A stretch of DNA of 55,146 nt from an archaeon. Lineage in GTDB: Archaea > Micrarchaeota > Micrarchaeia > CAILAH01. Positions 5,947-24,114 of the stretch are shown here, piece after piece (the first letter of the stretch is position 1; each line of letters opens with the position of its first letter). Below the pieces are notes generated by a model, which worked only from the letters and a program-made list of their open reading frames with translations, did not search any database and was not told where the DNA came from. The stretch lies in assembly GCA_024274875.1 (NCBI GenBank), contig JAJSAH010000018.1, forward strand, positions 1 to 55,146, given 5' to 3'. Made by a program: the position numbers and the translations under genes.

Positions 5947-6702
5947 ATGAGAGCGTTATGGACCGGAAATATCCGGTTTGGAATGGTGAGCATGCCTGTT
6001 AAAATGTACAGCGCAAGCAGAGAAAAACTGGCAAAACTGAAACTTTTATGCAAAAAACATCATACGCCTGTGCATCATAAAAATGTGTGTGATAAGGGGC
6101 ATGAGCTTAAAAATAATGAAATAATGCATGGCATTGCATACGGAAAATCAGTTGTTGGAATTCCAGATGAAGATTTGAAACGGATTATGCCATTCAATGA
6201 AAAATTAATCTCAATAATTTCATTCACCGAACCGTATGAGATAGATGAGTTATATGAATACAAGAAATACTACTTAGTTCCTTTTAAAAGGACGCGCGAG
6301 TTTGCAGTATTAAAAAAAGCTATGGAAAAAAGCGGATTGGTTGCGCTGGGAAAGATGATATATAGAAATGCAGAGAGATATGTGATTCTGAAACCATACA
6401 AAAGAATTTTGATGATGATTTCATTGCATTATCCTGCTGAAATTAATCAGATTAAATTGATTGCGCCAAGAATCTCTTCAAAAGCAAGGCCTGAGGAGAT
6501 CGAATTAGCAATGGAGCTGATTGAGCGCATGAAATCAAACTTTGATCCATCAATTATGAACGATGAATTCTGCGATGCATTGGTTACATATGCAAAACTC
6601 AAGAAAAATGGCAAGAAGATAGGTATGCGCAAAATTAGCCCACCTGTTGCAAGAGGCGGGTTTATAGAGTTGTTGAAGAAGAGTTTAGGAATGGTTAAAT
6701 GA
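5947..6702 (+). CDS. ku: Ku protein (prokaryotic NHEJ DNA-end-binding)
   Basis: MRALWTGNIRFGMVSMPVKMYSAS..., VCDKGHELKNNEIMHGIAYGKSVVGIPDEDL, YYLVPFKRTREFAVLKKAMEKSGLVALGKMIYRNAERYVILKP: full-length prokaryotic Ku core. Confidence 0.92.
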   Translation: MRALWTGNIRFGMVSMPVKMYSASREKLAKLKLLCKKHHTPVHHKNVCDKGHELKNNEIMHGIAYGKSVVGIPDEDLKRIMPFNEKLISIISFTEPYEIDELYEYKKYYLVPFKRTREFAVLKKAMEKSGLVALGKMIYRNAERYVILKPYKRILMMISLHYPAEINQIKLIAPRISSKARPEEIELAMELIERMKSNFDPSIMNDEFCDALVTYAKLKKNGKKIGMRKISPPVARGGFIELLKKSLGMVK

Positions 6703-19078: not shown

Positions 19079-20080
19079 ATGAAAGCCATCGAGTTGGTTA
19101 TGAAACGGGCTGTTGGTGCTGAAAAAAGAATTGTCTTCCCTGAAGGGTCTGACATTCGAATTATAGCCGCTGCAAGAAGATCTCTTGATAAAAAAATTGC
19201 TAAACCAATTCTTATAGGGAATGAAAAAACTATTATAAAGAATGCTAAAAATGCAGGGGTAGGATTAAAAGGGATTGAAATTGTTGATCCAGTAAGGAGC
19301 GATAAAATATATGAATACGCTAAGTTGTACTCTAAGATTACCAAAACCCCTGTAAAAACATCTAAACTAATCGCTCGCCAGCCAATATTTTATTCTGCGC
19401 TTGCTCTCAAAAACGGAGATGCTGACGGAATGATTGGCGGCTTAGTGTACACATCAGGAGATTTCATATCCGTATGCAAAGGCGTTGTGGGATTAAAAAG
19501 AGGCATTTCTGTTCCATCGAGCTATTTCATAATGGATGTCCCAGGATATGATGGCGGCGAGAATGGCGCTTTGCTGTACGCAGATGCATCAGTCAACCCT
19601 AACCCTACTGCGAAAGAACTCGCTGACATCGCGGTTACCACTGGTTATACTGCAATCAACCTACTTAAATGGAAACCGCGCATAGCTATGTTATCTTTTT
19701 CAACAAAGGGCAGCGCTGTGCACCCGGATGTTGAGAAAGTTGTAAATGCAACGCAGATTGCTATAAAAAAAGCAAGGAATATGAATATTGATGGAGAATT
19801 GCAAGCTGATGCTGCGCTCATCAAATCAACTGCAAAAAAGAAGATTAAGGGAAATTTAGGTTGCGTTGCCGGAAAAGCTAACATACTCATATTCCCGGAT
19901 TTAGATGCAGGAAATATTGCGTATAAGCTTACGCAGATTCTCGCCGGCGCGCATGCATACGGCCCAATACTGCAGGGATTCTCAAAACCTGTAAGCGATC
20001 TATCGCGCGGTGCAAAAGTTGATGATATACTGGGCGTTATCGCAATTGTGTGTGTTATTGCGAAGGAGATGAAAAAATGA
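19079..20080 (+). CDS. pta: Phosphate acetyltransferase
   Basis: RIVFPEGSDIRIIAAARR, DGMIGGLVYTSGD, ANILIFPDLDAGNIAYKL. Confidence 0.9.
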   Translation: MKAIELVMKRAVGAEKRIVFPEGSDIRIIAAARRSLDKKIAKPILIGNEKTIIKNAKNAGVGLKGIEIVDPVRSDKIYEYAKLYSKITKTPVKTSKLIARQPIFYSALALKNGDADGMIGGLVYTSGDFISVCKGVVGLKRGISVPSSYFIMDVPGYDGGENGALLYADASVNPNPTAKELADIAVTTGYTAINLLKWKPRIAMLSFSTKGSAVHPDVEKVVNATQIAIKKARNMNIDGELQADAALIKSTAKKKIKGNLGCVAGKANILIFPDLDAGNIAYKLTQILAGAHAYGPILQGFSKPVSDLSRGAKVDDILGVIAIVCVIAKEMKK

Positions 20081-21258
20081 AAACCATTCTCGTACTGAAC
20101 TGCGGGAGCTCATCAATCAAGTATAAATTATTCAACTCAAAAATGCGCGTGGTTGTTCACGGATTGGTGGAGAAGATAGGTGAGGAGGGTTCGAGAATCC
20201 TGCATTGGAAAGGGATTAAGCGCATGGCAGTCAACATTAATATAAACAATCACAAACAAGGGATACAGGAGTTGCTGAAAATTATTTTAAATAAGGAATG
20301 GGGCGGCATTAAAAATATTAGCGATATATCAATTGTCGGGCATAGAGTTGTTCACGGCGGTGAGATGTCAAAAACTGTGTTTGCATCCAAAAAAACGCTC
20401 AACAGAGTTAAAAAATACGAAGCGCTCGCCCCATTGCATAACCCCCATAATCTTACAGGCATAAAAGAATGCATGAGAATTATGCGAGGCACGCCTCAAG
20501 CAATGGTATTTGATACTGCATTTCATCAAACGATGCCCAAGAAAGCATTTATGTATGGCCTGCCATACGAGTATTATGCGCAGCTAGGCATAAGAAAGTA
20601 TGGATTCCATGGAACTTCGCACAAGTATGTATATGAGCAGGTGCGAAAACTGCTCAGAAAACGCAAATGCAATGTGATCACATGCCATCTCGGCGCAGGG
20701 TCGAGCATCACAGCGATTAAGAAAGGCATCTCGGTAGATACAAGCATGGGACTGACTCCGCTTGAAGGAGTCATGATGGCTACGCGCACTGGAGATCTTG
20801 ATCCTGCCATTGTTCAGCATTTAATTCGCAATTGCAAAATGAGCATCGATGAAATATTTTATGTTATGAATCATAAAAGCGGGCTGCTTGGCATATCAGG
20901 AGTGAGCAGGGATGTAAGAGTTATTGAGGAAAAAGCTAAGAAAGGCAACAAAAGATGCAAATTATCGTTGCAGATGTTTTCATACAGAGTTGCCAAATAC
21001 ATCGCTGCATATTCTGCTGTTCTTGGAGATGTCGATGCGATCGCATTTGCCGGAGGAATAGGAGAGAATGATTGGAAGATTAGAGAAGATATCTGTAAAT
21101 ACCTAAATATTATCGGGGTAAAAATAGACCGCACTAAAAATAAAAAATCAAAAACGCTTATCAGCGCAAAAAATTCAAAAATTAAGGTGTTTGCAATCCA
21201 TACTGATGAAGAAGTTATGATTGCAAAAGAAGCGTTAAATGCATTAAGGAAAAGGTGA
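20077..21258 (+). CDS. ackA: Acetate kinase
   Basis: MKTILVLNCGSSSIKYKLF, GHRVVHGGE, KYGFHGTSHKYV, CHLGAGSSI, DTSMGLTPLEG, FAGGIGEN. Confidence 0.95.
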   Translation: MKTILVLNCGSSSIKYKLFNSKMRVVVHGLVEKIGEEGSRILHWKGIKRMAVNININNHKQGIQELLKIILNKEWGGIKNISDISIVGHRVVHGGEMSKTVFASKKTLNRVKKYEALAPLHNPHNLTGIKECMRIMRGTPQAMVFDTAFHQTMPKKAFMYGLPYEYYAQLGIRKYGFHGTSHKYVYEQVRKLLRKRKCNVITCHLGAGSSITAIKKGISVDTSMGLTPLEGVMMATRTGDLDPAIVQHLIRNCKMSIDEIFYVMNHKSGLLGISGVSRDVRVIEEKAKKGNKRCKLSLQMFSYRVAKYIAAYSAVLGDVDAIAFAGGIGENDWKIREDICKYLNIIGVKIDRTKNKKSKTLISAKNSKIKVFAIHTDEEVMIAKEALNALRKR

Positions 21259-21262
21259 ATAT

Positions 21263-21619
21263 GTGAACATTGCAAATATAGGAATAGATGTTGTTGATAT
21301 TGAAAGGACAAAAAGAATACTTGCATCTAAAACAGGCAGTAATTTTATCGCGAGCACATACACTAAAAATGAGATCGAGTACTGCAATGGATGCCCGGTA
21401 AAATTGTCAGGGCATTTTGCGGTTAAAGAGGCAGTTTACAAAGCACTTGGAACTGGATGGATTAACGGGCGCGAAGTAGAAGTGCTGCACGGGAAGGATG
21501 GAGTTCCAATAGTTAAACTGCATGGAAAAACAAAAAAAATCGCAAAAAACAAAAAAATCAGCGCAAGCATCGCGTATGCAAGCGAAATTGCAATCGCAGC
21601 AGTTGTCATTTACGAGTAA
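21263..21619 (+). CDS. acpS: Holo-ACP synthase (4'-phosphopantetheinyl transferase)
   Basis: IGIDVVDIERTKRIL, GHFAVKEAVYKALGTG motifs. Confidence 0.88.
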   Translation: MNIANIGIDVVDIERTKRILASKTGSNFIASTYTKNEIEYCNGCPVKLSGHFAVKEAVYKALGTGWINGREVEVLHGKDGVPIVKLHGKTKKIAKNKKISASIAYASEIAIAAVVIYE

Positions 21620-21848
21620 GCTTCTTTTTTATGTATGCAATCGCCTGGCCCACAGTCTTGTTGCGGTTGGCATCTTGAGAAGGAACCTTTATGCCAAACT
21701 CATTCTCAGTGGCAGCTATTAATGCGATTATATCCATGGACTTTGCATTTAAATCCTCTACAAACCTCGTGTTATTTTTTATTGCTGACGGCTTGACTCT
21801 GAATATGTCTGAGACAATGCTTTTGAACCTATCCTCGATGCTTTTCAT
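21606..21848 (-). CDS. acpP: Acyl carrier protein
   Basis: FVEDLNAKSMDIIALIAATENEFGIKVPSQDANRNKTVGQAIAYI: ACP fold pattern with candidate phosphopantetheine Ser. Confidence 0.85.
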   Translation of the reverse strand: MKSIEDRFKSIVSDIFRVKPSAIKNNTRFVEDLNAKSMDIIALIAATENEFGIKVPSQDANRNKTVGQAIAYIKKKLTRK

Positions 21849-22250
21849 TCATTTCACAACCCTGAACAAGACAACATTGATGCCTGCTTTCTTCGATACT
21901 TTTGCTCTAACTTTTGCTGGAAGATTTTCATTGCCCTCCTTGATTTTCTCAGGAGTCGATGCATCCAATCCTTCAATCATCGTAAGGAATGTTGGGCCCT
22001 CCTCCAACTCAACCAAACCGTATGCATACGGAGAATACTTTGCAAACTTCTTTGGAGGAAGTATGCTCGTTGAATAGTAATGCACTATGCCTTTTCCTGA
22101 AATTTTCTTATAAGATATATTCCTGCTACCGCATTCCCTGCATGCTGCCACGGGAGGAAAGGTCCATTTCCCGCAATCCTTACAATGCGCGCCAAGTATC
22201 TTGCCTTTTGCAAGATTTCCATAAAACATTTTTGCGATTTTATCAACCAT
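21849..22250 (-). CDS. DUF35 / Zn-ribbon OB-fold acyl-CoA-associated protein
   Basis: HCKDCGKWTFPPVAACRECGSRNISYKKISGKGIVHYYST...PYAYGLVELEEG. Confidence 0.9.
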   Translation of the reverse strand: MVDKIAKMFYGNLAKGKILGAHCKDCGKWTFPPVAACRECGSRNISYKKISGKGIVHYYSTSILPPKKFAKYSPYAYGLVELEEGPTFLTMIEGLDASTPEKIKEGNENLPAKVRAKVSKKAGINVVLFRVVK

Positions 22251-22254
22251 GCAA

Positions 22255-23523
22255 TCACCTCTTTTTAAACACAGTTACAGCAGTTTGCATGCCATACCCA
22301 TGGTTATGCTGAGCAGCAACCTTAATTTCCTTTTTAACCTGCCGCCTTCCTGCTTCACCTCTCATTTGCTTCACGATTTCATATGTTTCTGCTCCTGGAG
22401 ATGCAGCAAACGCATGACCCTTGCCGTGCCTGCCTCCTGAAGTATTCATCGGCTTGTCATGGTTGTACAATGTACGGTCCTCCAAGAACGCCTTCCATGC
22501 CTCGCCTTTCTTGAAGTATCCAGCAATTTCTGAAAGTATTAACTGATAGATCTGCATGCAGTCATGCACAGATAAATAATCTAAATTCTTTCCGCTCACT
22601 TTCGCCATCCTGTACGCATTCTTGAATGCAACCTTGTCAATGAACCAATTTGTCGGGTCCTTGTCATGCCATGGGTAATTGCTCGCTGACCAATGGAACC
22701 CGATTATGTCAATAGGCTGATCACTGAACTTGCGGGCTTTATCCGGTCTTGTAACTATGTATGCTGATGCGCCATCAGCAGTGTTAAGAGCGCTTAACAA
22801 TCTTGTAGGGTATGCAAAGAAAGGATTATTCCTTGATTTCCAATAATCATACGTTGTCCTAAAACGCTTTCTTTTAGATGATTTCTCCAAACTCTCAGTC
22901 ACGAATGCTTTAGGATTAAGCGATGAATGCTTCCTTACCGCCTTATGCACATGATACATCACCCTATCCATTTCATCCAATGGAATATTATTCTTCCGCG
23001 CATAACCTAATGTTGGTATTGCGCCGTAGGCAGTTGCAATGTCATAGCAATGATGGTATGCATAAATCTGATCCACGCCAAAATCAGTCCAATACCATAA
23101 CTGCTGCGGCCCGATGGCTTTCCTCTCAACAGGGTTGTCATTGGGATATGATGACAGAATCTCAGCGCCAGCCACCAATACTGTATCAAATTTTCCGGAA
23201 GATACTGCCATAGCAGCCAAACCCAACCCTGTATTTAATGTTGAGCATGCAGTTGCAAAATGCAACCCAGGTTTAAGATTAAGCCCAAGCCAATCAGCAA
23301 GCTGTGTATGATGGCTGTACACATGAGAACTATGGCTGAGCATGCTTCCTATGTAAAATGCGTCTATGTCCTTCCCTGTCATGCCTGCATCATCCATCGC
23401 TTCAAACGCCGCCTCAGCAATAAGCTCGTGGAATGTTTTTCCCTTAAGCTCAGGAGTTTTAAGAACGCTCCCAAACTTAGTGCATCCCACACCTACAATA
23501 GATCCTTTGGGTTTTGCGGTCAA
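22255..23523 (-). CDS. Thiolase family protein (SCP2-thiolase-like)
   Basis: VGVGCTKFG, FATACSTLNTGLGLAAMAV (nucleophile Cys), GGRHGKGHAFAASP, C-terminal HNHGYGMQTAVTVF in place of the CxG motif. Confidence 0.9.
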   Translation of the reverse strand: MTAKPKGSIVGVGCTKFGSVLKTPELKGKTFHELIAEAAFEAMDDAGMTGKDIDAFYIGSMLSHSSHVYSHHTQLADWLGLNLKPGLHFATACSTLNTGLGLAAMAVSSGKFDTVLVAGAEILSSYPNDNPVERKAIGPQQLWYWTDFGVDQIYAYHHCYDIATAYGAIPTLGYARKNNIPLDEMDRVMYHVHKAVRKHSSLNPKAFVTESLEKSSKRKRFRTTYDYWKSRNNPFFAYPTRLLSALNTADGASAYIVTRPDKARKFSDQPIDIIGFHWSASNYPWHDKDPTNWFIDKVAFKNAYRMAKVSGKNLDYLSVHDCMQIYQLILSEIAGYFKKGEAWKAFLEDRTLYNHDKPMNTSGGRHGKGHAFAASPGAETYEIVKQMRGEAGRRQVKKEIKVAAQHNHGYGMQTAVTVFKKR

Positions 23524-23586: not shown

Positions 23587-24114
23587 TTAATATGCATATT
23601 CTTCTTTTTCACCGGAACGTTTATTAGAGTATCTCGAAAGTATGAACAATAAATCAGACAATCTGTTAAGATACTTCAATTCTGTTAAGAACTTCCCCTC
23701 ATTCTCATATAACAAAGATATGATGCGCTCTGCCCTCCTGCAAACTGCCCTCGAAACATGCAAAAACGCAGCAAGCCGCGTTCCGCTGGGCAGTATGAAT
23801 GAATTAAGTCCAGGGAGATCGCCCGCATACTTGTCTATTTGATTTTCAATGTATGAGATGCGGTTTTCATCTATGCTCTCGTCCGAGCCGGCCACATGCC
23901 CCGCAACCTTATACAAATCCTGCTGAACCTCTTTTAACAAACTATTCAACTGATAATCTTCCTCGCAGTGAGCCCTGCACACACCTATGAATGAACTTAA
24001 CTCATCAAGCGTTCCACAGGCACCAACTAATGGAGATTTCTTCTTTATCCTGCCACCGCTGAATATAGAAGTTTCGCCATAATCACCTAATCCTGTATAA
24101 ATCTTATCACTCAT
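23587..24114 (-). CDS. Cob(I)alamin adenosyltransferase (PduO type)
   Basis: IYTGLGDYGETSIFSGGRIKKKSPLVGACGTLDELSSFIG; FILPSGTRLAAFLHVSRAVCRRAER. Confidence 0.92.
   Translation of the reverse strand: MSDKIYTGLGDYGETSIFSGGRIKKKSPLVGACGTLDELSSFIGVCRAHCEEDYQLNSLLKEVQQDLYKVAGHVAGSDESIDENRISYIENQIDKYAGDLPGLNSFILPSGTRLAAFLHVSRAVCRRAERIISLLYENEGKFLTELKYLNRLSDLLFILSRYSNKRSGEKEEYAY

Follow-up and report, generated by a model that had tools for sequence, protein, structure and literature searches.

Acyl carrier proteins (ACPs) are usually viewed as essentially foreign to archaea, with a part in fatty-acid or polyketide synthesis in bacteria. What, then, do an ACP and its activating enzyme do in a micrarchaeal genome, where they lie between genes for a phosphotransacylase and a kinase on one side and for a thiolase and a DUF35 protein on the other? 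In the window (the whole stretch of 55,146 nucleotides that was analysed), the six genes form two converging groups:

pta, 19079-20080, plus strand: single-domain phosphotransacylase of 333 aa (PF01515, 329.7 bits)
ackA, 20077-21258, plus strand, ATG start at 20077: acetate/propionate-family kinase (PF00871, 449.5 bits; TIGR00016, 463.5 bits)
acpS, 21263-21619, plus strand, GTG start: holo-ACP synthase (PF01648, 50.7 bits)
ACP, 21606-21848, minus strand: acyl carrier protein of 80 aa (PF00550, 35 bits; TIGR00517, 73.7 bits)
DUF35, 21849-22250, minus strand: zinc ribbon and OB fold (PF12172/PF01796)
thiolase, 22255-23523, minus strand, TTG start codon uncertain: thiolase of 422 aa (PF22691/PF00108)

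Open reading frame analysis confirmed the genes, strands and spacing first read from the sequence: pta and ackA overlap by 4 nt, a gap of 4 nt separates ackA from acpS, the ACP start base adjoins the DUF35 stop, and the 3' ends of acpS and ACP overlap by 14 nt. Among relatives this last feature varies, an overlap in some and a gap in others, so that the overlap itself carries no signal. The family matches listed exceed their curated cut-offs, that of TIGR00517 being 70.45; for TIGR00516 the acpS product falls slightly short (56.7 versus 59.8).

A bacterial-archaeal chimera, a concern of the earlier note, was rejected on the grounds that the contig flanks are archaeal on both sides (ribosomal proteins L3, L4, L2, S19, L22 and S3, with RNase P, TFB and LonB), that the GC values compared match (0.419 versus 0.413) and that the cassette recurs in independent assemblies. 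Among 301 Candidatus Micrarchaeota genomes, all 11 that bear the thiolase carry the convergent set, pta being cut by a contig end in two. That independent genomes share all six genes, arranged convergently in one order, indicates more than chance. Furthermore, an ACP co-occurs with the cassette thiolase in 11/11 versus 2/290 genomes (Fisher p = 2e-18), the ACP family being absent from the rest of the 301-genome phylum set except for two unrelated cases. One of these lies on a 5-kb phage-like contig and was set aside; the other belongs to a biosynthetic cluster with AcpS and an adenylate-forming enzyme, different from the cassette module. Pta occurs in 12 of the 301 genomes, nine of which are cassette genomes with Pta inside the cassette. 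Judged from sequence, pta-ackA-acpS and thiolase-DUF35-ACP are well supported as one six-gene module.

The archaeal framing of the earlier note proved too narrow. The module also occurs, reshuffled, in Asgard archaea, Patescibacteria, Oleimmundimicrobium, Streptococcus, Lachnospiraceae, Atopobiaceae and Erysipelotrichaceae, and the majority of the relatives found are anaerobic bacteria; it is mobile and has moved between domains. The set is constant across changes in order and strand (collinear in Asgard archaea, convergent in Patescibacteria, collinear in a different order in Oleimmundimicrobium). Comparison of 80 named loci, comprising 67 cassette-type and 13 canonical (ordinary archaeal) thiolases, placed an ACP within 4.5 kb of 63/67 of the former, the other four ending at a contig edge, and beside none of the 13 canonical thiolases. 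At the 67 cassette-type loci, DUF35 is present in 66, Pta in 56 and a kinase in 54, with Pta or kinase missing at some bacterial loci within the sequence stretch examined; the phosphopantetheinyl transferase (PPTase) switches type (AcpS or Sfp), yet remains close by in many loci. DUF35 and ACP are fused into one gene at three loci, in gut bacteria, and thiolase and DUF35 at two, which shows that thiolase, DUF35 and ACP act together. Distance correlations are high for thiolase/DUF35 (0.91), ACP/DUF35 (0.87) and Pta/ACP (0.78); that for thiolase/AckA is weak (0.25), suggesting that these two genes have in part evolved separately.

The kinase of the gut form is a genuine butyrate kinase (TIGR02707, 398 bits versus a cut-off of 289), whose neighbours include PucR-type regulators, a monocarboxylate-type transporter and oxidoreductases of the FAD and FMN types, and additional ACP-Pta-Buk or ACP-Buk sets occur without a thiolase. 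Substrate hints among the gut neighbours, namely a vinylphenol-reductase-like FAD enzyme and a lactate-type transporter, do not converge on one substrate, nor does the 3-hydroxyacyl-CoA dehydrogenase neighbouring the Secundilactobacillus locus converge with them. A plasmid search returned one cassette-clade relative, on a Paracoccus megaplasmid (46% identity), where the thiolase is accompanied by one small unnamed gene at the DUF35 position and no ACP is annotated, as well as a Chloroflexota plasmid thiolase-DUF35 pair adjoining KAS III, a reductase and a CoA-transferase.

The modelled ACP (pLDDT 91) has the four-helix ACP fold, and its helix II (37-51) opens with Ser37 (codon 21738-21740), in a motif A-K-S instead of D-S-L. 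The latter is usual around the modified Ser of ACPs and is not strictly defining. This Ser is found in 78/78 ACPs detected at cassette loci, the preceding Asp in 1/78. The predicted pI of the window's ACP is 10; it is basic in most Micrarchaeota and acidic in CPR and gut forms, and a basic pI is thus not a defining trait. Both the ACP and the holo-ACP synthase are the only ones in the window's genome, and a sole ACP family member was found in several small genomes (Micrarchaeota, Sifarchaeum and a Patescibacterium); the genome of Streptococcus ovis, in which fatty-acid synthesis is expected, has more ACPs besides the cassette one. All 11 AcpS members compared share Asp9, Glu56 and Lys60, which occupy the places where metal-binding and catalytic residues are expected. 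The catalytic residues of the thiolase are the nucleophile Cys93 (codon 23245-23247), His320 and His370, of which Cys93 and His370 (GH motif) do not vary across two alignments, one of 36 and one of 39 sequences. A Cys nucleophile, a GH-motif His and a DUF35 partner are the marks of a DUF35-associated thiolase, and the closest solved folds to the model (pLDDT 91.7) are the archaeal thiolases 7YVY, 4YZO and 6ESQ, followed by SCP2 thiolase, PhlC, MucABC and BbsB. The DUF35 protein, with four conserved zinc Cys and 6ESQ chain E as its closest PDB relative, is the predicted partner and scaffold of the thiolase.

The earlier note had read the locus as an ACP-linked acyl or ketide pathway, built on a thiolase rather than a KAS enzyme and possibly coupled to acetyl phosphate. 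That thiolase-DUF35 is tied to a genuine ACP and a dedicated activating enzyme is borne out by linkage in relatives (convergent in all 11 Micrarchaeota carriers and reshuffled elsewhere), by the status of the ACP as sole member in the genome, by the lack of KAS and FabZ there and by the DUF35-ACP fusions; the coupling to acetyl-phosphate chemistry likewise held, phosphotransacylase and acyl kinase accompanying the module despite changed gene order and kinase family. The chain-building part found no support, since KAS, FabG and FabZ/FabA are missing from the window's genome (~90% complete), leaving no complete FAS-II set there, and no reductive partner is conserved alongside the module. No ketoacyl synthase is found in the 11 cassette genomes, where PF00109 gives only short thiolase cross-matches; FabZ/FabA appears in one of the 11, as a 72-aa fragment, and SDR (FabG-like) matches in six of them are unlinked to the cassette. 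On gene content, the module is not one for fatty-acid synthesis. The separate mevalonate thiolase that the earlier note proposed to look for is present elsewhere in the window's genome, in a canonical thiolase-DUF35-HMGS set with its own DUF35, and is 28% identical to the cassette thiolase. The cassette pta is the only Pta in the window's genome, and cassette genomes already carry PFOR and an ADP-forming acyl-CoA synthetase, so that the cassette Pta-AckA is unneeded for ordinary acetate formation.

Given that the sequences show a conserved module with a dedicated ACP, intact catalytic residues, gene fusions and absent fatty-acid synthesis, the best explanation, held with moderate confidence, is C-C cleavage by thiolase-DUF35 onto holo-ACP, followed by ATP formation through Pta and kinase. 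AcpS would place phosphopantetheine on Ser37 of the dedicated ACP; thiolase-DUF35 would cut a beta-dicarbonyl substrate at a C-C bond via an acyl-Cys93 intermediate, with holo-ACP as the acyl-accepting thiol, replacing or exchanging with CoA; Pta would then interconvert acyl-S-ACP plus Pi and acyl phosphate, and AckA or its counterpart acyl phosphate plus ADP and short-chain acid plus ATP. Such a single C-C bond reaction, probably cleaving and ending in ATP, fits better than a chain-building ketide pathway. Three elements of this scheme are inferred, namely acyl-ACP as the substrate of Pta, a catabolic net direction, and a beta-dicarbonyl, either free or activated, as the starting compound. 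In the archaeal/CPR form, which has an acetate kinase, the acyl group is probably acetyl; in the gut form, with its true butyrate kinase, it is probably larger. Since Pta and the kinases work in both directions, gene content alone does not settle which one is used; counted for ATP formation were the gut-form butyrate kinase and its transporter, oxidoreductase and regulator neighbours, and the Pta-kinase tandem is that of substrate-level phosphorylation. No substrate-forming enzyme is conserved adjoining the module in archaea. The wider proposal, of a substrate-level phosphorylation in which the acyl group stays on ACP from C-C cleavage to ATP and which was transferred among DPANN, Asgard archaea, Patescibacteria and gut anaerobes, is plausible and is advanced tentatively.

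Every enzyme being reversible, AckA and Pta might instead spend ATP to turn acetate via acetyl phosphate into acetyl-ACP, which thiolase-DUF35 would use for C-acylation of an acceptor or condensation with it, in the manner of PhlACB with phenols and MucABC with tetramic acids. The nearest non-thiolytic fold relatives are indeed the C-acyltransferases PhlC (5M3K) and Streptococcus macacae MucABC (9VBO), and PhlC forms an acetyl-Cys and is active in vitro without CoA (PMC6392133). However, conserved genes for making an acceptor are lacking, the butyrate kinase of the gut form lies among transporter and oxidoreductase genes, as is typical of catabolism, and the PhlA/HMGS-like third subunit that PhlACB requires is absent from the cassette genes; this biosynthetic direction is rather unlikely. 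Less probable still is a logic like that of citrate lyase or malonate decarboxylase, with ACP as a permanently acetylated subunit from which the substrate displaces acetate, Pta-AckA serving only to prime or re-prime it. The dedicated ACP and PPTase, the fusions to an enzyme subunit and a route from ATP and acetate to acetyl loading would suit it, but an acyl-ACP transferase gene (CitF/MdcA-like) is not conserved with the module, and a thiolase forms its acyl-enzyme unaided, making such exchange unnecessary. The sequences of Pta and AckA resemble ordinary CoA enzymes, as expected if pta-ackA served CoA-based acetate metabolism and ACP-AcpS-thiolase-DUF35 were mere neighbours separate in function; this is very unlikely in view of the rarity of Pta in the phylum outside cassettes, the acetate route already provided by PFOR and the ADP-forming synthetase, and a link kept in bacteria where kinase family and gene order differ. 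That the module is left over or transferred from bacterial fatty-acid or polyketide synthesis, as ACP and AcpS as classic parts of fatty-acid synthesis and the six genomes with FabG-like reductases might suggest, is highly improbable given the lack of ketoacyl synthase in all 11 genomes and of FabG in the window's genome, the lone FabZ fragment, an ACP without the DSL Asp and with a basic pI in most Micrarchaeota, and the other ACPs of Streptococcus ovis.

If true, cleavage onto ACP with ATP formation would give DPANN and CPR organisms, whose metabolism is poorly understood, an additional energy step independent of CoA, would mean that ACP can serve energy conservation outside the chemistry of fatty acids, polyketides and citrate lyase, and would correct annotations that assign the cassette genes to fatty-acid or acetate metabolism. 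Cultivable carriers are Streptococcus ovis DSM 16829, S. moroccensis DSM 105143, Dielma fastidiosa and Tractidigestivibacter scatoligenes. A search of the open-access (PMC) literature, subscription papers and preprints lying outside it, found no description of the module.

Compared with the archaeal mevalonate thiolase/HMGS/DUF35 complex, the cassette has a thiolase and DUF35 of the same fold, with the nucleophilic Cys, the VHDC His and the GH motif, and its DUF35 is nearest to 6ESQ chain E; the module differs in having no HMG-CoA synthase gene, in adding ACP, PPTase, Pta and kinase, and in a thiolase that is divergent and longer at about residues 130-230. The C-acyltransferases PhlACB and MucABC share the DUF35-bound thiolase subunit, the acyl-Cys (shown for PhlC) and chemistry at a beta-dicarbonyl or phenolic carbon, but at only about 22-24% identity, and PhlACB has a third, KAS/HMGS-like subunit where the cassette has ACP, phosphotransacylase and kinase. 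Two-component thiolase-DUF35 C-C cleavage is also found in benzoylsuccinyl-CoA thiolase (BbsAB) and the steroid aldolases Ltp2-ChsH2 and Sal-Shy, which in contrast act on CoA thioesters without an ACP; NCBIfam scores for these types lie far below cut-off (30 versus 250 and 71 versus 750). Citrate lyase and malonate decarboxylase likewise cleave C-C bonds in catabolism and have a carrier protein of their own, but their catalytic subunits are different, and to our knowledge their operons contain no thiolase, DUF35, Pta or kinase. Finally, the Pta-AckA and Ptb-Buk pairs of substrate-level phosphorylation are the same two enzyme families in tandem; these are normally fed by acyl-CoA, whereas those of the cassette are tied to an ACP and its PPTase.

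The window sequence bears out the two converging operons of the earlier note: the plus strand encodes pta, ackA and acpS, the minus strand encodes the thiolase, DUF35 and ACP, and all six products match their expected families in profile searches. The host belongs to Candidatus Micrarchaeota, as do the closest named relatives of the cassette. Archaeal genes for ribosomal proteins, TFB and LonB flank the cassette, and family searches of the window's genome (833 kb in 24 contigs, ca. 90% complete) recover one AcpS and one ACP family member. The following features of the window are relevant here:

19079-23523, both strands: the six-gene cassette
23587-24114: cobalamin adenosyltransferase, which directly adjoins the cassette and separates it from the ribosomal operon, and is not kept with it elsewhere
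5947-6702: Ku-family protein (PF02735), which suggests that this Micrarchaeon may carry out end-joining DNA repair

A thiolase profile search of 301 Micrarchaeota genomes identifies 11 carriers, mostly metagenome assemblies, from four families and eight genera. All 11 carry the six-gene set in the same convergent order, and with it the linkage of ACP, AcpS, thiolase and DUF35 that the earlier note suggested looking for in relatives; in two, pta is lost to a contig end within the cassette. PF00550 occurs in 13 of the 301 genomes, namely the carriers, a phage-like contig and an unrelated AcpS/adenylating-enzyme biosynthetic cluster; the co-occurrence of ACP and thiolase gives p = 2e-18 in an exact test that assumes independent genomes, while related genomes are not. 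The latter cluster (L067:14128-17132, genome G113), in which AcpS, an adenylate-forming enzyme and ACP lie among sugar/surface-like biosynthetic genes, is a second use of ACP in Micrarchaeota, unrelated to the cassette. Of the 301 genomes, 12 have Pta; nine of these are carriers, each with a single copy that lies inside the cassette. Outside the cassette the carriers share only a ferritin-like pair, and thus the kept unit is the cassette and not the region.

This linkage extends beyond the phylum. A pattern-based scan of 84,980 named genomes gave at least 80 thiolase loci, and its counts refer to the matches listed rather than to a census. Among these matches, near relatives (58-78% identity) occur in Borrarchaeum and Sifarchaeum (Asgard), two Patescibacteria (CPR), Oleimmundimicrobium, a Parvarchaeota contig and one further archaeon, and a further branch (ca. 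30-35%) in Streptococcus, Lachnospiraceae, Erysipelotrichaceae, Atopobiaceae, Coriobacteriaceae and Secundilactobacillus. Searches of the listed loci with six gene profiles place DUF35 (66/67), ACP (63/67), Pta (56/67) and kinase (54/67) beside cassette-type thiolases, the four loci lacking ACP all ending at a contig edge; DUF35 adjoins all 13 listed canonical archaeal thiolases, and ACP, Pta and kinase adjoin none of them. Gene order and strand vary from lineage to lineage, which argues that function, and not merely recent inheritance, holds the set together. In a quick tree with long branches, all cassette thiolases separate from the canonical archaeal enzymes (SH-aLRT 100), the window thiolase clusters with those of one Micrarchaeon and two Asgards (99), and that of another Micrarchaeon clusters with Oleimmundimicrobium and Patescibacteria (99), a split that argues for transfer of the cassette across domains.

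Two methods detect single proteins joining DUF35 to ACP at three loci (L097:11255-11959, L104:11277-12038 and L112:11262-11963, from Erysipelotrichaceae and Oscillospiraceae) and thiolase to DUF35 at two (L100 and L106); no description of natural DUF35-ACP fusions was found in the literature searched. These fusions show that the three act together. The pairwise distances of thiolase, DUF35 and ACP are also correlated with one another (0.77-0.91; 0.78 for Pta versus ACP). The phosphopantetheine transferase (AcpS in archaea, CPR and some loci of gut bacteria, Sfp-like in other gut loci) often lies near the cassette despite its change of type. Furthermore, each of the 78 ACPs recovered from these loci has the Ser, whereas 77 do not have the usual preceding Asp, which suggests dedicated partners. 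Olsenella-type loci (L118-L123, L127, L129 and L131; e.g. L120:2929-5916) carry a further ACP ca. 6 kb from the cassette, adjoining an Sfp-like transferase and a conserved protein of ca. 650 residues.

The thiolase alignment shows no variation at Cys93 or His370. At position 320 the archaeal/CPR branch keeps His (VHDC), whereas the gut branch mostly has Asn, as bacterial thiolases do. The nearest folds to the thiolase model (pLDDT 91.7) are the archaeal 7YVY, 4YZO and 6ESQ, followed by SCP2 thiolase, PhlC, MucABC and BbsB. In a direct search, canonical thiolases match the window protein at both ends and not over residues ca. 165-219, which lie within the loop domain that helps to bind CoA in thiolases; this divergence would fit a changed thiol partner.

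The cassette probably works by C-C cleavage onto ACP, followed by Pta and kinase steps to ATP, both direction and substrate being those we infer. AcpS would make holo-ACP, thiolase-DUF35 would cleave a putative beta-dicarbonyl, holding the acyl group on Cys93 and handing it to the ACP thiol, and Pta would swap ACP for phosphate, from which the kinase would make ATP. The part of this scheme up to acyl transfer onto ACP is proposed because of the gene fusions and linkage, and the ATP-forming direction because of the kinase families (true butyrate kinase, Buk, in gut forms), the catabolic appearance of gut neighbour genes, and the existence of ACP-Pta-Buk or ACP-Buk sets without thiolase. Thiolase-free sets lie at L102:17858-20473 (-), L112:19586-20973 (+) and L156:9734-12801; Collinsella has a second ACP-Pta-Buk set of this kind, and Dielma an ACP-Buk set with an Sfp-like transferase and a metallo-beta-lactamase-fold protein, hinting that other front-end enzymes may feed an ACP-linked acyl phosphate. 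The reverse direction, C-acylation driven by ATP, is a possible alternative, because structurally close proteins, PhlC for example, carry acetyl on a Cys and transfer acyl groups to carbon (PMC6392133).

Ordinary acetate formation would not need the cassette Pta-AckA, since PFOR occurs in all 11 carriers, and so does a domain resembling succinyl-CoA ligase, of the type seen in ADP-forming acyl-CoA synthetases (a weak match in one carrier). Nor is the cassette the mevalonate set: the search for a separate HMG-CoA synthase-linked thiolase that the earlier note had called for finds one, with its DUF35 and HMG-CoA synthase genes, elsewhere in the window's genome, and it is 28% identical to the cassette enzyme. 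The cassette is likewise not one for fatty-acid synthesis: the search for FabG/FabZ/FabF homologues, also called for, shows no complete FAS-II, as no carrier has a ketoacyl synthase, ten of the 11 lack FabZ, and five, the window's genome among them, lack FabG.

A Chloroflexota plasmid (L155:4469-9654), in which thiolase-DUF35 adjoins KAS III, a ketoacyl reductase and a CoA-transferase, shows that a different thiolase-DUF35 pathway is also carried by a mobile element. Each enzyme family in the cassette is already known; searches of the open literature gave no description of a phosphotransacylase and kinase combined with a thiolase-DUF35 dedicated to ACP. The cassette is akin both to DUF35-thiolase enzymes and to Pta-kinase energy conservation but combines the two with a dedicated ACP, and if acyl-ACP is the energy-rich intermediate, it would be more than a variant of either system.
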